Positions 1 to 24,660 of a stretch of 38,082 bases of DNA are shown here, one piece after another. The DNA lies in NCBI RefSeq assembly GCF_000686525.1, contig NZ_JMKT01000002.1:1-38082 (forward strand), written 5' to 3'. How positions within the stretch are numbered: position 1 is the stretch's first letter; each line of letters begins with the position of its first letter. Source of the DNA: Desulfonatronovibrio hydrogenovorans DSM 9292. Its GTDB lineage: Bacteria; Desulfobacterota; Desulfovibrionia; Desulfovibrionales; Desulfonatronovibrionaceae. Made by a program: the position numbers and the translations under genes. Under the pieces are notes generated by a model that was not told where the DNA came from, searched no databases, and worked only from the letters and a program-made list of their open reading frames with translations.

Positions 1-29
1 TCCGGTAAGTTTCAAGAAAGATGTCGCCT

Positions 30-1111
30 TTAGGCCGCAATTTTTTCTGTATTAGAGGTTCTTTTTTTATTCAGTGTGACTTCAGAAGGTGCAGACCATT
101 TCCTGATCTGACCTGACCACCGTTCCGGGTTTTTCATTTTTGCTCTTTGATAAACAACTCGTCGTCTGGCCAGGATTTCTTTGTCCCTGCCTGTGTGCCG
201 ATCATTGGGGGTTACATACGCCAGGCTGCTGTGACGATGCTCATGATTATACCACTGTACAAAACCCTCGACCCAGGTTCTGGCATCACTTAAGCTTTTA
301 AAAGGCTTTTGAGGATACCAGGGGCGATATTTCAGAGTCTTGTATAAGGCTTCTGAATGGGCATTGTCATTGCTTACGCCAGGCCTTGAGAAGGACGGCA
401 TTACACCCAGCTGCTGCAAAGTGGCCAGCATGGTTGCTCCCTTCATGGGAGCACCGTTGTCAGAGTGTAGGACCAGTTGGTCTCTGGTTATGTTTTCCAG
501 ATAGCATCCTTCGCTGATCAAGCCTCCGGCCAGAGTGGATCCTTCACGGGTGTGTATCTGCCAGGTGATGATCTTTCTGCTGTAGAGATCAATGATCATG
601 TACAGATAAAAGAACACTCCTCTAACCGGGCCCGGCAGATATGTAATGTCCCAGGTCCAGACCTGATTGGGCTCAGCAGCTGTCAGTTCTTCAGGCCTGT
701 TGTGTCTCTTAGGCTTTGAAGGCTGCCTGTGGGTGTTTTGACCTTCTTCCCGAAGGATGCGGTACATGGTTGCCTCGGACGCCAGGTATGTTTCCTGATC
801 AGCCAGATCCGCAACTATTTGATGCGGACTCAGGTTCCTGTATGCAGGACTGTTGATGGTCTTCAGAATCTTCTGTCGTTCCATTTCACTCAGTTTGTTG
901 GCTGGTGTTTGGCTTGACTCTTTACGTCTGTCTTCAAGTTTCTCAGGACTTCTCCACCTTTGGATGGTCCTGGGACTTAAGCCGGTAATGGCACAAGCTT
1001 TTTTCAGCCTGGCTCCTGAACTGCAGGCTTCGTCTATAAGTGTCAGGATGCGCTTTTTCTTCTGGGTCGGGATCAGTCGTCCCTGTTGCCCCCCCAGAGG
1101 GCATCCACTTT
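30..1111 (-). CDS. IS3 transposase OrfB (DDE catalytic part, made by frameshift)
   Basis: This is the rve/DDE integrase-like catalytic half of an IS3 transposase. The acidic residues sit in DITYLP, HSDNGAP and SEALYKTLK, the usual D-D-E order. An ATG-started frame covers 30-884 (284 aa), but the same frame is open upstream to a run of nine A on the minus strand (1117 to 1109). There a -1 slip from OrfA would give an OrfAB fusion. The stretch between 1109 and 884 includes KKACAITGLSPRTIQRW, a helix-turn-helix-like segment expected between the two halves, which supports the fused product. OrfB alone from 884 would lack this part. Confidence 0.88.
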
Positions 1112-1549
1112 TTTTTTGAGCACCAGAAGGGCCGTTGTTTCAGCTAAAGCCTTGTCCTTGCGGTTAAGCTCTTTTTGAAGATCTTTGACTTCTTTTTTAA
1201 GCTGACGGACATTATTGCCTTTGTTCCTTGATTGATCCTTGGAGAATTCTTTTTTCCATTTCTCCAGATGATGAGTATGTATTCCTTTTTGTCTGCACCA
1301 GGCTCCCAGCTGTTCGTCTGTAAGCTTGGCAGATTCAAGCAGGGCATCGAGCTTTTCTTTTGAGGACCAGTCCTGTGGACGTTTCTCATGTTTGGCCATA
1401 ATGGTATCTCCAGTGCTTTGTGCTTTTTTAAGCCAGTATCGCATGGTTGAACCTGGAACTCCCATGTCCTTGGCGATCTGGGCTTGAGAGTCAGTCCCTG
1501 TAAGTACCATTTTGACCACGTTTTCTTTAAATTGCAAAGGGTAAGACAT
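1073..1549 (-). CDS. IS3 transposase OrfA (DNA-binding part)
   Basis: A protein of 158 aa starting MSYPLQFKENVV, with an N-terminal helix-turn-helix of the IS3/IS911 OrfA type (QIAKDMGVPGSTMRYWLKKA). It ends in a lysine/leucine-rich coiled-coil-like segment that would serve dimerisation. The frame is open further upstream to 1669, but ATG 1549 has AGGAG nine bases before it and is the natural start; the upstream part would read through the IS hairpin. Near its end it crosses the A9 run (1117-1109), the probable -1 frameshift site for making OrfAB. Confidence 0.85.
   Translation of the reverse strand: MSYPLQFKENVVKMVLTGTDSQAQIAKDMGVPGSTMRYWLKKAQSTGDTIMAKHEKRPQDWSSKEKLDALLESAKLTDEQLGAWCRQKGIHTHHLEKWKKEFSKDQSRNKGNNVRQLKKEVKDLQKELNRKDKALAETTALLVLKKKVDALWGGNRDD
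1109..1117 (-). other. A9 slippery run for -1 programmed frameshift
   Basis: Nine consecutive A on the minus strand inside orfA. Reading in the orfA frame gives three AAA codons, then GTG GAT. Slipping back one base gives AGT GGA TGC and enters the orfB frame, which is open from here to its stop at 30. This is the layout by which IS3 elements make their OrfAB transposase. No stimulatory structure was worked out. Confidence 0.75.
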
Positions 1550-1608
1550 TATAACCAGCTCCTGCCCCTTGTTATGTTGAACATGATAGGATGAAAGGGA
1601 TTTTTGTT

Positions 1609-1639
1609 CCAAGAGGAGCCCCCCGGGGGCTCCTCTTGG
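1609..1639. other. Perfect 15-bp hairpin in the IS leader
   Basis: Bases 1609-1623 and 1625-1639 are exact reverse complements (arm starts CCAAGAGGAGCCCCC) with a single central base. The hairpin lies inside the IS right end, 60 bases before the orfA start and between terminal repeat and RBS. Known IS elements use such hairpins to stop outside transcripts from translating the transposase; that role here is inference. No T-run follows on the minus strand, so it is not a standard terminator. Confidence 0.8.
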
Positions 1640-1653
1640 CCCTCCCTCAAATT

Positions 1654-3282
1654 TCATCCAAGACGACATCTATCCTGACACATGGGGGTTCTGACCGGGT
1701 ATTCGAATCGGTAGCCGCCGCTAGTACTGGTCGGAAAACGCACGAAGACCGGCCTCGTCCGATACCTGCGCGAAGTCCATTCAGCCTTTAGCAAGAGGTT
1801 GGCGTTGTCGGGTCCTGGATTCTCCAGATTCCTGAGTACTGCATCATAGCGAAACAGCTTGATCCAGACGTATTTAGCCCGACGGAACGAAAGACCGAAA
1901 CCGCCAATGTCTACAGAACGAATCGGACATCTTCGAATGCGCCGGATCGCCTGTCGTGCTATCCGATAAAGGTCTTCCTCTGCGGGGTCTTCGCCAGAGT
2001 TGAGGACTACAATGGCATCGACTCTCCTTAGACTTCCTGCGCTGGTGTTCTTCCGATTCCGAATGTAGTAGCGGAAGCACAGAGGAGTGGTGCCAGTCTC
2101 GCTCCAGCGCTTGCGTATCTCGACCCCCTGATGTGCAAGGCTGAGACGGAGTGCAAGGCGAACAGTCGAAAGCCGCCTCCGAACATTGGAACTATTGTGC
2201 CAAAGGAGGCTCGATTCCATGACCTCACTCAATGATTCTAAGGGTTCATCTTCTCGACGTGCAAGCGCGAGGCGCGCTGCGTCCAAGAAGATTGATCCGC
2301 TCACTGAGTGACCGGTATCGAAAGTGATCGCGATTCGATCGAAGTCATCTCCTCCGAAGTCTTGAGCCCTCGCAGCAAGATGTAGCGCATCAAACGTCTG
2401 CAGCGTGCGGGAGGGCATGGGCGTCGCGCATACGATCCCTAGCTGGTTCTTACCATGTAGTACCTCCGTTGGGATCAGTCGCTCAACCGACAGAGCGCGA
2501 TACGACCCGGCTCCTCGAAGGGCCATAAGGGTAGCTCCAAGAGGAATCGCGTTTCCTCGGATGTACGTCGGATTGCGAAGGATGAAGAGAAGAATGGATG
2601 CGGCGACTGCGTTACTGGTAGCAATGATTCGGTCAAACAGCCGAAGGAAATCGCCAGGTGTCAGTTCAACGGTTCCGGATCGGTCAACGAACCGGATATC
2701 GGCAATGCCATACTCGGTGCTTCCGTGGGAGATCGCGTTTCGCACGGGGCCAAGAAAGCCGTTTCCAAGCTTTGAAAAACCTAGTCCGGGCAAAAGACTC
2801 ACCCGATTTGTGAGCGTTTGGTTGCAGTACTGTTTGCCGCGCACACGCTCGAGAACGCCCAAAGGCAGGTTAATCAGATGATTGAAGGCGTGCTCCGTGT
2901 ACCTCTGGTATTCGGGGAACCAGATGCACTCGAACTCTCCGTAGTCAGCCGGAGAAGACAGTGACGGCAGATGTTCGCGTCCCCAACTCGAGCCCTGGGA
3001 TACGAGCGAGTGGATCGCATGGCTAAGCTCGCGTGCCTGTACTCGCAGGGTCTCAGCGGTCTCTGCCGGGTGGACCTCAAGAAGATCGATTAAAACTTCA
3101 ATGTCATCGTCGTAGACGTACTTGAGAGGTCGCTTGTCCGCAAAATCGAAGAGCGACAGCGCCCAAGGTTCGCCCTGATGAGCAGCAACCCATCGGGCAA
3201 ATCGAAGCACAACAGCTCGTTGCCTGGAAGCGGTTTCCAGGCGGACCATCGGGTGCGATGCGAGAAATGCGTTCAGGCTCAT
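1654..3282 (-). pseudogene. Cassette gene of unknown function, 3' end cut off by IS
   Basis: An open frame of 542 codons of which only those upstream of base 1680 are original; the last nine residues (MCQDRCRLG) and the stop are IS sequence. I do not recognise the family. Residues 181-186 read RNAISH, within LGPVRNAISHG. This matches the R-x4-H motif of HEPN-fold proteins, and the surrounding segment could be a helical HEPN-like domain, though this is only a motif match. The C-terminal half is arginine-rich without clear motifs. The ATG start is about 30 bases after the attC core at 3313-3319, as expected for the next gene in a cassette array. Base usage (more CGN arginine codons) differs from the nif region, suggesting transfer. 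Confidence 0.6.
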
Positions 3283-3312: not shown

Positions 3313-3378
3313 GTCTAACGCCAAGCTCAGCCGAGGAGGCGCGTTAGCGCCGACGTCGGCTGTAGCGCCGTGTTAGGG
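3313..3378 (-). other. attC recombination site of an integron cassette
   Basis: Read on the minus strand, this 66-nt site follows the TGA stop of the 228-aa gene directly. It starts with CCCTAAC (R''-like, first base off consensus) and ends with GTTAGAC, which fits GTTRRRY. The arms pair imperfectly: CTAAC, then GCT, then CAGCCGA on both sides with an extra unpaired A, as in attC L boxes. A central GGCGC/GCGCC stem with a GTTA loop is present. Position after a stop codon, length and folded shape are all typical of attC. Confidence 0.85.
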
Positions 3379-4065
3379 TCATCTACTGAAGAATGCATCT
3401 GGTAATACCTTGCATGACCCAAAATCAAACTGAGTGAGGAACTTCATGGACGGTGCTTTAGCCGTCGATTCGTTAACGATCTTTGAAACGGCTTCAATTT
3501 GCGTTCCATCGAGACGTTCATAGCGTTGAATTCTTACGACGAGGGAATTCACATTATCGGTGATATGGTCTCCTGTCTCGGTAAATGCATGGGGGCGCTC
3601 ACCGTGTATGTACTCCGGAACAGCACTCGCCATGACTTGGGTATAAGCTTGCCCGGTTGTTCCCGATAGCGCTTGTTTGACATTTGGGTTTGATTGGAAC
3701 AGCGCTGCCATGGTTCTTTCTATCCGAAATGCAACGTCTCCGCATAACCGCGAAATCTTGTCATGATCATCATGTGTGCTGTATTGATGTAACAGGACCA
3801 ATTGCCAAAGACACTCGTAGTATGCACGCAACTCCGCATAAATCGCTCCAATCTGAGGCGCGATCCTTGGGGCCGCATGTAGGATATTGTGCGCTGCGTG
3901 AGTTGTGTTGATCAGCGTGAAACAAACCAGCAGGTCTGGCGACGACTTGTCTCTAGCAAGCACATCATCACCCATTCTCAGAAACGCTTCGGTCATGTTC
4001 GCCAACCAATCGGACAGTTGCAGCGCGTCTGGCGTTCGCTTGAATAGACTCCCAAAGAGGCTCAT
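3379..4065 (-). CDS. Integron cassette protein of unknown function (228 aa)
   Basis: I do not recognise this protein. It is largely helical in appearance, without signal peptide or membrane segment, and has a His/Ala-rich stretch near residues 55-70. The start ATG has AAGGAG nine bases upstream and lies 23 bases after the GTTAGGC core at 4088-4094. The stop TGA abuts the attC at 3313-3378. The gene plus that attC therefore form a complete cassette of about 780 bp. No integron promoter is visible close by. The neighbours give no functional hint, since cassette genes are usually unrelated. Confidence 0.8.
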   Translation of the reverse strand: MSLFGSLFKRTPDALQLSDWLANMTEAFLRMGDDVLARDKSSPDLLVCFTLINTTHAAHNILHAAPRIAPQIGAIYAELRAYYECLWQLVLLHQYSTHDDHDKISRLCGDVAFRIERTMAALFQSNPNVKQALSGTTGQAYTQVMASAVPEYIHGERPHAFTETGDHITDNVNSLVVRIQRYERLDGTQIEAVSKIVNESTAKAPSMKFLTQFDFGSCKVLPDAFFSR

Positions 4066-4087
4066 GTATCAATCTCCTTTTCCCCTG

Positions 4088-4165
4088 GCCTAACGCTTGA
4101 GGCGGCGGCCGCTATTGTGCCAGCGGCGATGAATATCGTGGGTGGGATTTGCTCAAACATTTCCT
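4088..4165 (-). other. Degenerate attC-like site without its own gene
   Basis: On the minus strand this ends in CTCAAGC followed by the core GTTAGGC (4094 to 4088), a perfect GTTRRRY. A matching GTTTGAG lies at 4158-4152, and in between GCCGCT and AGCGGC form a hairpin stem. The R'' box expected beside GTTTGAG is not recognisable (AGGAAAT). A second GTTAGGC lies at 4177-4171. The roughly 83 bp between the two cores thus look like an attC-only mini-cassette or a worn site. Confidence 0.6.
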
Positions 4166-4183
4166 GTGTTGCCTAACAATGTT

Positions 4184-4313
4184 ATTATACGGAATTCAAG
4201 AAAACACTTCTCCATATTTCCCCAAAAATTGGTAGCAATTTCTTAAATCTATTGTCAATTCAGCACCTTTCAAAAATCATACTTTCCAACATATTAGTCT
4301 GCCTGGGCCGTTT
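4184..4313. repeat. 130-bp direct repeat, copy 1
   Basis: About 130 bp that recur at 5711-5842 in the same orientation with roughly 90% identity by eye. Both copies lie just upstream (minus strand) of a cassette-type core: GTTAGGC at 4177-4171 here, GTTGTGC at 5706-5700 for copy 2. In this copy the minus strand contains a TATAAT hexamer shortly before the core, but no good -35 at normal spacing. Near the two ends of this copy CTAA and TGTT segments are inverted, so it could be a long attC. Copy 2 does not keep that symmetry. Confidence 0.8.
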
Positions 4314-4348
4314 ACCCCTCAGGCCAAAAGCCTTCAGGGTTTTGGCCT

Positions 4349-4377
4349 GGTCAGGGCCTCACTCTCATTGGCACAGA
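4349..4377 (-). mobile_element. Relic IS end matching the IS at the right edge of the window
   Basis: These 29 bases match the reverse complement of 37754-37782 at 26 of 29 positions, including 20 identical bases in a row (4358-4377). At 37754 the same sequence is the end of an IS that interrupts an antiporter gene. Here no transposase is attached, so this is a solo terminal repeat or remnant. It sits downstream of the cupin gene beside a 10-bp stem hairpin (CAGGCCAAAA and its complement, 4319-4348) that may belong to the remnant or act as a terminator. Confidence 0.7.
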
Positions 4378-4426
4378 AGGCTGTCTGAAAGATTATGGAT
4401 AAATGAGATTTGGTAAAATTCAGGCA

Positions 4427-4771
4427 TCAGTATAATGGTGGGCTGTGATGGACAAACAGCCTCAAAGGACTGGTTCCAGTGTTGCGGATGCCATGCTCCG
4501 TTCCGGGCAGCACAAGGATATGATCGCCCGGACCCACAGCAGTCCAGTCCTGGTTGACCAGGGCCTCTCCCTGGCCTGATACTATGTAGATGGAATCAGC
4601 CTGAATTTCGTGGGTGTGGACCGGCACAGCCACCCCAGGGTCAATGACCAGTTCGGATACACTGACCAGATCTGACTTGCCCTGGGCCACCAGCATGGCC
4701 ATCCCCACCCCGGCAAATTTGGGATGATCCTGGTATTTCCTTGATTCTGCAGGAGAAAATATGGTTTGCAT
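4427..4771 (-). CDS. Small cupin-domain protein (114 aa)
   Basis: A single cupin_2 barrel. Cupin motif 1 is visible as VPVHTHEIQADSIYIVSGQGE around residues 49-69, with both histidines and a potential metal-binding set. Motif 2 is PGDHILVLPGTEHGIRN around residues 81-97. Stand-alone cupins of this size often bind a metal and a small ligand, but the substrate cannot be deduced. The start has AAGGAGA at good spacing. The gene lies between the attC ending at 4827-4833 and the repeat/core at 4171-4313, so it is probably a cassette gene. Its base composition and codon use are closer to the host genes than those of the other cassettes. Confidence 0.85.
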   Translation of the reverse strand: MQTIFSPAESRKYQDHPKFAGVGMAMLVAQGKSDLVSVSELVIDPGVAVPVHTHEIQADSIYIVSGQGEALVNQDWTAVGPGDHILVLPGTEHGIRNTGTSPLRLFVHHSPPLY

Positions 4772-4826
4772 GGACTGTCTCCTTTATCCTGGCTGCTGAG
4801 GCAGTGTTCTAGGGCAGGGTGTTTCA

Positions 4827-4901
4827 GTTCAACGCTCGGCTTAACCCGACGACTTCGGAGGGCCTGCGAAAAATCCGGTCAGGTTCAAGCCATCTTTAAA
4901 C
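4827..4901 (-). other. attC-like recombination site after the 260-aa gene
   Basis: On the minus strand the TGA stop of the preceding gene is followed at once by GTTTAAA (close to RYYYAAC). Then come GAT, an arm GGCTT-g-AACC-t-GAC, a loop region, the matching arm GTC-g-GGTTAAGCC, a GAGC spacer and the core GTTGAAC (4833 to 4827), a perfect GTTRRRY. The 75-nt length, unpaired bases in one arm and position directly after a stop codon match attC sites. R'' departs from consensus in its last base. Confidence 0.68.
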
Positions 4902-5684
4902 TCAATCACAAGGGCCAAGCCACCACATGATTACTTGCCACAAGATCCCTGCAAAACCAACAAGGAAAACAGCGGCCGCGATAATGTTGCCAACCCGAGC
5001 TGTTCTTACGTTGTCGAAGTGCTTCAGTTCATCTTTCGCATAGTCGGACAACGTGACCAGAGCTTTCGGGGTCACTTCGTAGTAGTTACCATCCATCATC
5101 TTAAGATCACCGGTCTCCACTAGGGAATCCATGACCATCCGCAGATGAGCCTTGTGCTCTTCGTGACCTGGATGGTGAAACCACCATCGCGAGTGCAGCT
5201 CCGCGCCTAATAAAAGCGGATGGAACAAAGAGCCTGGCTTCGCTATAGCTTGCTCCGTCAGCATTCTAAGAATGTCCATCCTCTCGCTTCTCACCAGTTG
5301 CCGGCGATTGTACAGCTCCTGCGAGAAGCGGTCCTTCCATAACGTTAACCAGTGCCTTCCGAAAACAGTGGCGAGAAGAAAGGAGAAAGAGCTTTCGTAA
5401 TTGAACTGATAGCCCCGGTAATAGTGCTCAATCCGGAGACGATGGGGTAATGCGGCGAGCGCGCTCATCAGCAACGTCGCATTCCAACCAGCTCGCTGAT
5501 CTTTCCAGAGAATCCCTGCGTAGCCCCTGAGCTCCTCCTCCTTCACAAGGAACTTCCAGTTGAGGGATGGGATCTCTAAGTAGGTAGCGTAGAAGTCATT
5601 TTTCCTAGCACTCTCGCCTGACAGCGGAATCGACCCCGGAGTCGGCCGCCTGAGAGCTTTTCTAATTGCATGACGAAGTAGCAT
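4902..5684 (-). CDS. Cassette protein with C-terminal membrane anchor (260 aa, unknown)
   Basis: Unknown family. The body is soluble and rich in Arg, Trp and His. Residues around 185-220 (LRMVMDSLVETGDLKMMDG, then YYEVTPKALVTL) resemble a winged-helix fold. The C-terminus is one hydrophobic helix (IIAAAVFLVGFAGILWQVI), so it is probably a tail-anchored inner-membrane protein facing the cytoplasm. The frame extends to a TTG at 5705, but that would lie in the cassette core GTTGTGC (5706-5700). ATG 5684 is the better start, although no strong RBS is seen. The stop abuts the attC at 4827-4901. Confidence 0.7.
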   Translation of the reverse strand: MLLRHAIRKALRRPTPGSIPLSGESARKNDFYATYLEIPSLNWKFLVKEEELRGYAGILWKDQRAGWNATLLMSALAALPHRLRIEHYYRGYQFNYESSFSFLLATVFGRHWLTLWKDRFSQELYNRRQLVRSERMDILRMLTEQAIAKPGSLFHPLLLGAELHSRWWFHHPGHEEHKAHLRMVMDSLVETGDLKMMDGNYYEVTPKALVTLSDYAKDELKHFDNVRTARVGNIIAAAVFLVGFAGILWQVIMWWLGPCD

Positions 5685-5710
5685 GATTATCCGTTTGTTG
5701 CACAACTGAA

Positions 5711-5842
5711 ATTATCCTGAATTCAAAAAAACACTTCTCCATATTCCCCCAAAAATTGGGTAGCAATTTCTTAAATCTATTGTCAACTCAGCACTTTTCA
5801 AAAATCATACTTCCCAACATATTAGTCTGCCTGGGCCCTTTA
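5711..5842. repeat. 130-bp direct repeat, copy 2
   Basis: Second copy of the repeat at 4184-4313, in the same orientation, ending on the minus strand next to a core-like GTTGTGC (5706-5700) and the start of the 260-aa cassette gene. The two copies bracket exactly the 260-aa gene and the cupin gene. Differences are scattered substitutions and one-base indels. Function is not clear; attC, attI-like or promoter-bearing repeat are all possible. Confidence 0.8.
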
Positions 5843-5941
5843 GTTCAAGACCGAGAGGTCAGCTTTATCCAGCAGGCCCTGTGCTTTTCCTGTAATGGGG
5901 GACAGAAGCCACTTTTTGACACTTGGGAAAGAAGCTTAACA

Positions 5942-6083
5942 AACTGTTGAAAATCTCCCAATTGCTGCGTCGCTACAAAAAGTTCAAACTCTTACGTATT
6001 CTAAATACGCTTCGACCTTGAACTTTTTTTGCTTCTTGCACTTGGAATTTTTGAACAGTCTGCCGGTTAAGGACTTTTTCAAC
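5942..6083. repeat. Palindromic dispersed repeat, copy A
   Basis: An imperfect palindrome of about 120-140 bp. Outer arms begin CTGTTGAAAAT and end TTTTTGAACAG. Inner arms contain AAAAAGTTCAA near 5977 and TTGAACTTTTT near 6018, around a loop with CGTATT/AATACG. Copies occur at 8820-8960 and, split by a MITE, at 24249-24356 plus 24661-24710. It lies just after the stop of the flavodoxin-like gene and could act as a transcription end. Confidence 0.85.
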
Positions 6084-7874: not shown

Positions 7875-8820
7875 AAAGCAGCAGGAAATGCTCTGGACCA
7901 TGATCCTGTCCAGAAAGTTCTCTGACTCCCTGGTGGAGCTGTGCAGGATCGAGGGCAAGATTCCAGGGATGATGATCCTGTCCACCGGTCAGGAAGCTGT
8001 GGGCTCAGGGGTCTGTGCCGCCCTGGAGCCAAGCGACGTGATCATCACCAACCACCGCAGCCACAACCACCTTCTGGCCAAGGGAGCCGACCCCAAGGGG
8101 CTGATGGCGGAAATTTTCTGCAAAAAAACCGGCTGCAATAAAGGCAAGAGCGGGACCCTGCATCTGGCTGTGCCTGAGGTTAATGCCCCCTGCACCACCA
8201 CTGTGGTCGGGGCAACCCTGCCCATTGCCGTGGGCCGGGCCTTTGCCCAGCAGTACCAACAGGAGCAGGCAGTAACTGTCTGCTTTTTCGGTGACGGTGC
8301 AGCAGATGAAGGCTCATTCCACGAAGCCCTGAACCTGGCTGCCCTGTGGCAGCTCCCGGTCATATTTGTCTGCGAAAACAACCTCTATGCCGGGGCCCAG
8401 CGTTATGAAGAACACACCAGGGTCAAGGACATGGCTGAACGGGCCAGGGCCTATGACATGCCCGGCATTATTGTTGACGGCAACGATGCCCTGGCTGTGT
8501 ACCAGGCCACCCTGGAAGCCAGGCAGCGGGCCCTGGACGGACAAGGCCCGACCCTTATGGAATGCAAGACCTACCGCTGCCGGGGCCACGGTGAAACCGA
8601 TCCCCAGCACTACCAGCCAAAGGATGAGATCAGGGCCTGGCAGGAAAAATGCCCTATTCCAAGGCTTGGTGACCTGCTCATCAAGTCCGGGGTGATCACT
8701 GCTGCTAAGCTGGAGGAAATGGAATCCATGGCCGGAAATATCGTGGAAGAGGCTGTTCATTTTGCTGAGGAAAGCCCGTATCCAGAGCCCCATGAAGCCC
8801 TGGAAGATGTTTATGTTTAG
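7858..8820 (+). CDS. acoA: TPP-dependent dehydrogenase E1 component, alpha subunit (AcoA/PdhA-like)
   Basis: A 320-aa alpha subunit of an alpha2beta2 E1 enzyme that decarboxylates a 2-oxo acid or cleaves acetoin, passing the acyl group to a lipoyl E2. The thiamine-diphosphate motif runs from GDGAADEG (145-152) to ENNLYA (173-178). The N-terminal substrate loop TNHRSHNHLLAKGAD and the late RGHGETDP segment are typical of AcoA. RBS GGAGG precedes ATG, which overlaps the regulator gene. Length and motifs favour acetoin dehydrogenase E1, but pyruvate or a branched 2-oxo acid cannot be excluded. The matching beta subunit begins 726 bp downstream, beyond three palindromic elements. No E2 or E3 gene is nearby. 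Confidence 0.88.
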   Translation: MNISRKKQQEMLWTMILSRKFSDSLVELCRIEGKIPGMMILSTGQEAVGSGVCAALEPSDVIITNHRSHNHLLAKGADPKGLMAEIFCKKTGCNKGKSGTLHLAVPEVNAPCTTTVVGATLPIAVGRAFAQQYQQEQAVTVCFFGDGAADEGSFHEALNLAALWQLPVIFVCENNLYAGAQRYEEHTRVKDMAERARAYDMPGIIVDGNDALAVYQATLEARQRALDGQGPTLMECKTYRCRGHGETDPQHYQPKDEIRAWQEKCPIPRLGDLLIKSGVITAAKLEEMESMAGNIVEEAVHFAEESPYPEPHEALEDVYV

Positions 8821-8960
8821 CAGGCTGTTGAAAATCTCCCAATTGGCTTGGTCGCTTCAAAAAGTTCAAACTCTTACGTATGGGTAAATACGCTGCGACC
8901 TTGAACTTTTTTTGTTTCTTGCACTTGGGATTTTTGAACAGCCTGCCTGATAAGGAGTTT
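8820..8960. repeat. Palindromic dispersed repeat, copy B
   Basis: Second copy of the palindrome at 5942-6083, starting at the very last base of the E1-alpha stop codon. The arms CAGGCTGTTGAAAAT (8820-8834) and ATTTTTGAACAGCCTG (8930-8945) pair around an inner AAAAAGTTCAA/TTGAACTTTTT stem. Its location after a stop codon suggests that it can end or weaken transcription toward the beta gene. Confidence 0.85.
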
Positions 8961-8984
8961 TACAACTTGCAGCTTGACTTAAAA

Positions 8985-9150: not shown

Positions 9151-9160
9151 AAAATAATGG

Positions 9161-9465
9161 GTTCCTCGACGTTTCATGTGGATTATTTTAAAGTAAGCTG
9201 CTCATCTATTTTTGTGAGCCAAGAGCGATAGGCTGGTGAGTTTTCTTGTGTACGCCAAAAGGGGGAAACCGGACCGCAATGCAGATTTGATTCCACATAT
9301 ATTTCAACTATTAACAAATATTCCCCAAACTTACTCAAACCAAATGGTTAAGAGTCCGGAGGGGGCAGATATCCCCCTTTGGCGGACATTAGAAAACTCC
9401 CAGCCGAAAGCGGGGCAAACAAAAATCGTGAGCAGCAATTCCACAACTAACAACGTCGAAGACTG
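9161..9465 (+). mobile_element. MITE-like palindromic element, copy A
   Basis: A 305-bp element with imperfect ends (GTTCCTCGACGTT at the left; AACGTCGAAGAC at the right) and a target duplication ATAATGG (9154-9160 and 9466-9472). Nearly the whole element is an imperfect inverted repeat: GCTGCTCATC near 9198 faces GTGAGCAGC near 9429, and CGCCAAAAGGGGG near 9254 faces the CCCCCTTTGGCG region near 9374. Copies B, C and D are at 10655, 24357 and 37042. It encodes no transposase, so it must be moved by an enzyme elsewhere. Confidence 0.9.
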
Positions 9466-10654: not shown

Positions 10655-10956
10655 GGGGCTTCAACGTCAGGCCTGGAATTGCTGCTCATCTATTTTGGTT
10701 TGCCCCGCTTGCAGCTGGGAGTTTTCTAATGTCCGCCAAAGGGGGATATCTGCCCCCTCCGGACTCTTAATCATTTGGTTTGAATAAGCCTGGGCAATAG
10801 TCGTTACCAGCTTAAATACATGGGGAATAAATTCTGGATTGCGGTCCGGTTTCCCCCTTTTGGCGGGCACAAGAAAACTCACCAGCCTATCGCTCTTGCC
10901 TCACCAAAATAGATGAGCAGCTTACTTAAAAAATCCACATGAAACATCGAGGAACC
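10655..10956 (-). mobile_element. MITE-like palindromic element, copy B (inverted)
   Basis: A 302-bp copy of the 9161-9465 element in the opposite orientation, flanked by a perfect 8-bp duplication GGAAATAT (10647-10654 and 10957-10964). The outer inverted arms are well conserved while the central 60 bases differ from copy A at about a third of positions without length change. Copies A and B bracket the acoB-like gene. Confidence 0.92.
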
Positions 10957-24248: not shown

Positions 24249-24356
24249 TGTGAAAAAGTCCTTATCAGGCAGGCTGTTCAAAAATTCCAAGTGCAGGAAA
24301 CAAAAAAAGTTCAAGGTCGCAGCGTACTTATCCATACGTAAGAGTTTGAACTTTTT
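24249..24356. repeat. Palindromic dispersed repeat, copy C (left part)
   Basis: Third copy of the palindrome of 5942-6083, here in the orientation beginning GTCCTTATCAGGCAGGCTGTTC. It is interrupted by MITE copy C after ACTTTTT and continues at 24661. This fixes the order of events: palindrome first, MITE later. Confidence 0.85.
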
Positions 24357-24660
24357 AGGTTCCCCGACGTTTCATGTGGATTCTTTTAAAACAAGCTGCT
24401 CACTTTTTTTGTATGCCAAGAGCGTCAGGCTGGTGAGTTTTCTTAAATACGCCAAACAGGGGGAAACCGGACCGCAAAACAGGTTGGTTTCTCCATATAC
24501 TCTTACAATCAAAAAATATACGCATAACTCCTCAAACCAAATAGTTAAGAGTCCGGAGGGGGCAGATATCCCCCTTTGGCGGATATTAGAAAAATCCCGG
24601 CCAAAAGCGGGGCAAACAAAAAACAGTGAGCAGCAATTCCACGCCTAACGTCGAAGATCC
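24357..24660 (+). mobile_element. MITE-like palindromic element, copy C (nested)
   Basis: A 304-bp copy in the same orientation as copy A, inserted in the palindromic repeat. The duplication is ACTTTTT (24350-24356 and 24661-24667). The ends read GGTTCCCCGACGTT and, inverted, GGATCTTCGACGTT (11 of 14 identical). It lies about 180 bp downstream of the nifB stop codon. Confidence 0.92.

Follow-up and report, generated by a model that had tools for sequence, protein, structure and literature searches.

Two candidate integron platforms without an integrase gene in Desulfonatronovibrio hydrogenovorans DSM 9292

Clusters of attC sites lacking integrase (CALINs) can be mobilised in trans by a functional integron integrase, IntI (excerpts of PMC12444791). 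A region of this general kind, with attC sites and cassettes and no intI gene nearby, lies near one end of the contig NZ_JMKT01000002.1 of Desulfonatronovibrio hydrogenovorans DSM 9292, which was analysed over the entire stretch of 38,082 nucleotides (the window). With at least two nearby attC sites and no nearby intI, the region falls within the formal definition of a CALIN, as an earlier note on this DNA had proposed, but that label misses the attI copies and the duplication described below, as well as an integrase gene on another contig. Recognisable copies of attI set the window apart from described CALINs, and searches for CALINs do not cover them: the standard survey program, IntegronFinder, classifies integron remains by intI and attC and misses attI other than that of class 1 (excerpts of PMC9024848). 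The window is thus best read as two putative integron platforms without intI, rather than as attC sites alone.

Three other described arrangements offer partial parallels. Sedentary chromosomal integrons with a decayed integrase, as in Xanthomonas (PMC12444791), likewise combine a lost or broken intI, a short array and arrays at other loci. The genome studied here (G000; 2.94 Mb in 16 contigs, 98.9% complete, with the window as contig C2) differs in having several attI platforms alongside one intact intI and an apparent duplication, in tandem, of an entire platform. Cassettes of the Delta-attI type in class 1 and 2 integrons have the order attC, open reading frame (ORF) and attI, which resembles the cupin gene followed by attI copy A in the window, and attI-type sites located after a gene are known from these integrons, where they are mobile; in seven of the eight cassette types the attI part is 14-18 nt long and in the other 244 nt, and a complete attI1 also occurs (excerpts of PMC12901181). 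Such cassettes sit in resistance arrays, whereas the window has about 130 nt of a different attI beside an ordinary-looking chromosomal gene, and its cupin gene with attI A is more likely a product of duplication. Insertion at attG sites, mentioned in PMC12444791 and PMC12901181, also yields IntI-made arrays away from intI, but with attI itself present here there is no need to invoke insertion at random in the genome. Among the mainly open-access papers searched, no account was recognised of a chromosome in which one intI accompanies several attI platforms, and excerpts of PMC7923331 have nothing on this lineage.

We consider it quite probable that the region is the remnant of a chromosomal integron that lost its intI, was duplicated in tandem as a unit, and afterwards underwent cassette turnover driven by IntI. 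This interpretation builds on features that can be read from the letters themselves: attI copies, a second copy of the cupin gene, common boundaries that fall at crossovers, cassettes that differ between the two units, and one intact intI elsewhere in the genome.

Putative attI copies and the integrase gene

The stretches 4184-4314 and 5711-5842 of the window are direct repeats, and the two copies to which they belong (A and B; Table 1) are 90-93% identical (93% outside the core). The same ~130 nt lie between intI and the first cassette on contig C9. Six copies were found in the genome in total, of which four lose homology at the crossover, one (B) has a changed core and one is truncated. In an alignment of six copies, one of them from a congeneric genome (G010), the shared sequence ends at AACATTG, beyond which the copies differ: the next letters are TTA in three copies of this genome and in that of G010, and TGC in the C12 copy, whereas the core of copy B is changed. 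Copy A reads AACATTG/TTAGGC at the crossover (slash), as expected of attI with G/TTRRRY; copy B fails this match and is decayed. Positions 4171-4177 and 5700-5706, which the earlier note had listed as further cores, instead mark the crossover ends of the two attI copies.

Table 1. Coordinates of predicted features in the cassette region and of attI copies on other contigs
Feature	Position	Strand	Remarks
Insertion sequence, two ORFs (HTH_Tnp_1; rve), IS3-like layout	1..1687	-	
ORF542, array A cassette gene, listed 542 aa	1688..3282	-	interrupted by insertion sequence
attC of array A	3313..3378	-	R' GTTAGAC = 3313-3319
ORF228, array A cassette gene, 228 aa	3379..4065	-	orphan
Gene-less stub, attI A to next cassette	4088..4165	-	core GTTAGGC 4088-4094; no attC hairpin
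attI copy A	4177..4314	-	crossover between 4177 and 4176; 21-nt core = 4177-4197
Duplicated segment with cupin gene (4427-4771)	4381..4834	-	begins at attC R' core
attC of array B	4827..4901	-	R' GTTGAAC = 4827-4833
ORF267, array B cassette gene, listed 267 aa	4902..5705	-	in-frame ATG at 5684 = likely start
attI copy B, core decayed	5703..5842	-	apparent remnant of fuller integron; intI gone
attI copy	C12:169690-169829		followed by RelBE-like pair and methyltransferase-like gene (names from ORF reading)
attI copy	C9:44840-44972		beside relic of intI start
Truncated attI copy	C9:377011-377143		core lost; first spotted by eye

Of the 297 genomes sampled from the order, five (G000, G008, G010, G037 and G049) are matched by R1, a sequence-only model built from seven copies of this attI. 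The seven strong matches (six in G000, one in G010) arise by construction, and those in G008, G037 and G049 do not. Among the four genomes besides G000, three have the repeat beside intI or a relic of it: G010, of the same genus, where the attI copy stands beside an intI relic; G037, where it stands beside an intact intI; and G049, where an intI relic of 72 aa adjoins it. In the record of a Desulfonatronum metagenome-assembled genome (MAG), attI also precedes intI. The integrases of this record and of G037 are 78-79% identical to that on C9 at the protein level, and their attI sites are identical to each other, such that the two may represent one genome. The intI relics at C9:44k and in G010 are visible at the DNA level only, and tblastn finds neither. 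Such behaviour of the ~130-nt repeat is what would be expected of an attI belonging to a single lineage of IntI.

It is very unlikely that the repeat is instead an unrelated dispersed element, such as a small transposable element or a promoter, that lies near cassettes by chance. The distribution just described and the loss of homology at the integron crossover position both speak against such an element, even though it would accommodate the presence of six copies in one genome and of other short repeats in the window. It would also accommodate the weak, split attI relic of G008, around which 16 kb carry no IntI trace, and the more distant integron integrase of G015 (44% identical), which has no ~130-nt repeat beside it.

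Seven matches to the integron integrase model TIGR02249 were obtained in G000. None falls in the window, and one, at C9:385383-386312, exceeds the cut-off (365.7 bits, no stops). No trace of IntI was detected by tblastn in the window or in C11:1-14000, and neither attI A nor attI B has intI beside it, as a complete integron would. The absence of an integrase that the earlier note had reported therefore holds for the window, but not for the genome, in which the search for intI identified one full-length gene on C9. Over 299 residues its product aligns with 2a3v, a Vibrio integrase of solved structure (207 bits), and the active-site motifs are kept in this alignment. The full-length protein has 503 aa (C9:384849-386360; L007 967-2478), of which TIGR02249 spans only residues 179-488; an N-terminal extension of ~175 aa is also aligned in the Desulfonatronum relative. 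A further integrase, 65% identical and accompanied by cassette-like genes, is found in L035 (CAMBQN010000043.1), a record filed under an Akkermansia MAG, possibly through mis-binning.

The array to the left of the C9 intI is on the minus strand and contains attC sites together with genes for a methyltransferase and a PemK-type product; another four of its cassette proteins match no Pfam family. The attI copy with the intI relic on the same contig adjoins a cassette gene of the AbiV-type HEPN family (Pfam HEPN_AbiV; C9:44144-44830, L030 8145-8831). At C9:377011-378639 (L014 11012-12640), a MATE-like gene is followed by the truncated attI relic and a 2-thiour_desulf gene (Pfam), an order that echoes that of the cupin gene and attI A. 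Here and below, the names MATE, RelBE, ABC transporter, GIY-YIG and, on C12, methyltransferase derive from ORF reading only. The GIY-YIG-like gene behind the C12 attI and the first one behind the attI of G010 share 75% identity over 96 nt (L022 11763-11858 and L031 (reverse) 600-695).

attC sites and the duplicated cupin segment

Two minus-strand genes are each followed directly at their stop by an attC-like site, as originally described: the stop of ORF 3379-4065 abuts position 3378, and that of ORF 4902-5705 abuts 4901. In the sense orientation, the R'' boxes of the two sites (CCCTAAC and GTTTAAA, respectively) each match RYYYAAC at six of seven positions. Standard aligners fail on palindromes such as attC (PMC9024848). 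Sites were scored with a home-made scanner that uses its own thresholds, rather than the IntegronFinder covariance model, by requiring an exact R' and an R'' match of at least 5/7 and by counting outer-stem pairs. It was applied to 19.8 kb of array DNA, chosen once the attI copies were known, and to 79.5 kb of host DNA as a control. The sites at 3313-3378 and 4827-4901 score 22 and 26, respectively, compared with 21 for the best control candidate. Scores of at least 18 were reached by six matches in the array DNA versus one in the control, although the six represent five places (one C9 place was counted on both strands), and one of them, L014 13118-13174, lies opposite to its genes.

Folding of the bottom DNA strand was evaluated for eight sites. 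The segment 3307-3384 is distinctly more stable than shuffled sequences (z -3.27; no shuffle out of 200 is as stable), whilst z is -1.91 for the last attC on C11 and -6.1, -3.16, 0.85 and -0.05 for four sites of C9. The check by bottom-strand folding that the earlier note had suggested thus favours the first site of the window, and not the site at 4827-4901, which is discussed below. A third, gene-less site at 4088-4165 had also been proposed as an attC. This candidate was rejected on the basis of its scan score of 8, the z-value of -1.0 for 4087-4165 and the lack of a hairpin, while its R' crossover core at 4088-4094 is intact.

The cupin gene also exists in a second copy. Positions 4381-4834 of the window, which comprise this gene and its leader, are 95% identical to C11:3731-4182, and in both places the match begins one base before G/TTGAAC, i.e. 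at the R' core of an attC. The sequences upstream are different attC sites: that of ORF267 in the window, and one that follows a RelBE-type pair on C11 (3681-3738, score 20). The second cupin gene is followed by an ABC-transporter gene. In the window, an R' core, the cupin gene and attI A follow one another, such that an ORF bounded by crossover points is succeeded by attI instead of attC.

All four genes initially described point the same way and share no common family. Their status as cassettes, which had been assumed for each, is doubtful for the cupin gene, given the near-identical copy behind a different attC on C11. We rejected it as an ordinary cassette, in that no attC follows it, the C11 copy lies beside the ABC-transporter gene, and five of the family's 17 other genomes contain a relative that is 44-56% identical; composition does not decide the matter. 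An ordinary operon with unrelated intergenic sequence, named beforehand as the outcome that would contradict an integron, was not seen in G008 and G011, two of the five genomes with a cupin relative. The stretches examined around the ABC-transporter relatives of G010, G011 and G012 contain no cupin, flavodoxin or ORF267.

Divergence is about equal for the cupin copies (95% identical) and the attI copies (93%, core excluded), which fits a single duplication event. In contrast, blastn and tblastx detect no similarity between arrays A and B. An alternative is that the cupin gene and attI A form a mobile unit of the attC-ORF-attI type, which IntI placed into array B without any tandem duplication. 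The borders of such a unit, an R' core and attI, would suit this explanation, cassettes of the order attC-ORF-Delta-attI are mobilised by IntI1 (PMC12901181), and the MATE-like gene on C9 likewise precedes an attI relic. Nevertheless, we regard it as improbable, because the second cupin gene is followed by the ABC-transporter gene rather than by attI, so that the unit could not be excised there as now arranged, and because a single tandem duplication accounts for the copies of both attI and the cupin and for their similar divergence.

Linking the window to the second cupin depends on how the contigs are joined. The insertion sequence of 1687 nt is present, full-length and identical, at the starts of C2, C3, C5 and C11, and therefore at least two full physical copies are expected; a 249-nt fragment occurs on C10. 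It is oppositely oriented on C2 and C11. Matching 2-bp flanks are obtained only by pairing C2 with C11 (AC/AC) and C3 with C5 (CT/CT), the latter two both having glycosyltransferase-like genes (ORF reading). In addition, C11 has a short open tail that is in phase with ORF542 and whose stop overlaps an R''-like GTCTAAC. Most likely, C2 joins C11 through the common insertion sequence.

Origin of the two units and the reach of the integrase

The unit that was duplicated would have had the order attI, cassettes, last attC and cupin, occurring twice, and the duplication could have preceded or followed the loss of intI. We infer a tandem order in which, on the minus strand, the first unit would comprise attI B, ORF267, attC and cupin, and the second attI A, the stub, ORF228, attC and ORF542 with its insertion sequence. 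The second unit would continue on C11 with ORF169, PIN-domain plus RelBE-type toxin-antitoxin genes, the last attC, the second cupin gene and the ABC transporter. The two units agree in their flanks as far as the crossovers but enclose unrelated cassettes, a pattern for which IntI-dependent exchange later than the duplication is the best explanation; in the simplest mechanism, an IntI would have continued to insert cassettes at attI and attC and to excise them there.

The last 21 nt before the crossover (the core) were compared with the remainder of each attI copy. Copy A agrees with the C9 attI at 21 of 21 core positions and at 82 of the other 115 columns (71%; Fisher p 0.002), whereas for copy B the figures are 16/21 and 83/114 (p 1). 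Copies A and B differ from each other at 5 of the 21 core positions and at 8 of the other 114 (p 0.03), and the remaining comparisons give p 0.20 (A versus C12), 0.04 (C12 versus C9) and 0.04 (C9:44k versus C9); all six tests were chosen post hoc, take sites as independent and are uncorrected. By this comparison attI B looks dead, and copy A is probably still usable in trans by the sole full-length IntI found, so that the C9 enzyme may serve it today.

Simple decay offers another account of the same region: a plain CALIN in which intI was lost, no later activity took place and the two arrays lost different cassettes by ordinary deletion. This account has a considerable chance, short of even, of being correct. 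The decayed core of attI B, the degenerate third site, the disruption of ORF542 by the insertion sequence and the intI relics at other attI copies, which indicate general decay, all speak for it. Random deletion would not be expected, however, to leave kept sequence that stops at crossovers, as it does at attI A and, in both units, at the cupin, or a fully kept attI A core next to a flank that has drifted.

Several observations weigh against a duplication followed by integrase-driven turnover. The attC at 3313-3378 exceeds the best control candidate by just one point, folding of the attC at 4827-4901 is neutral (z -0.23, with 74 of 200 shuffles as stable), and GC content does not separate cassette genes (0.49-0.55) from their neighbours (0.53-0.57). 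The 2-bp flank match that pairs C2 with C11 is short, and 66 nt between the cupin gene and attI A have no source under a clean tandem duplication. No empty site was found in relatives, such that the ancestral state is unseen; this search proceeded via the cupin (G008 and G011, of the five relatives that have it), the ABC transporter (G010, G011 and G012, with only 1.45 kb upstream in G010) and the flavodoxin (neighbours in G012, and G008 by tblastn only), and none revealed a common neighbourhood. The attI tree places A and B together with the copy of C12 (support 0.98), while the one adjoining the intact intI falls outside this group; the window platform therefore represents an older branch, and not a recent copy from C9. 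Finally, intI may have adjoined copy B while the cassettes were changing, in which case no service in trans was needed. Beyond attI B (about 5843-5935), weak similarity to the C9 spacer between attI and intI continues, and thus an integrase may have been present in cis part of the time. Copy A has the cupin segment on one side and no intI trace.

A broader proposal, that of a dispersed integron in which one IntI gene maintains several attI platforms across the chromosome, is tentative and rather unlikely. If it were true, a copied platform could lose its own intI and still exchange cassettes in trans, and selection would keep the 21-nt IntI core of a remote attI while the rest drifts. Were the copies of attI to function in trans, arrays that pass for dead could in some cases still be live, and the contribution of integrons to genome plasticity would be underestimated. 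With a lineage-specific attI profile, an apparent CALIN becomes a putative duplicated platform that can be linked to an intact intI on another contig, and the diverged copies, with the core kept in A versus decayed in B, provide a natural pair for testing service in trans.

Cassette genes and other sequences of the window

ORF267 and ORF228 match no Pfam, NCBIfam or PADLOC family, and PADLOC identified none of seven cassette proteins. Distant relatives of ORF267 occur in 28 plasmid records; among the matches listed (6), identity is 27-30% over 92-95%. Of 395 genomes sampled across the phylum, one has ORF228, namely G000 itself, and the protein has no match in the plasmid search. Rfam yields 0 matches over the entire window.

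A consensus scan for the cassette promoter Pc located weak promoter-like pairs on the minus strand at 4273-4246 (attI A) and 5801-5774 (attI B). The region has six such pairs, compared with 2.1 +/- 1.3 in shuffled sequences.

Two families of short repeats are also present in the window. A repeat of ~300 nt has three copies (9160-9462, 10659-10956 and 24358-24657) that are 78-90% identical and occur in two orientations. Another, of ~150 nt, is found at 5936-6083, 8817-8966 and 24251-24356 (the third partial), and one of its copies occupies the place where the intI of platform B would have been.

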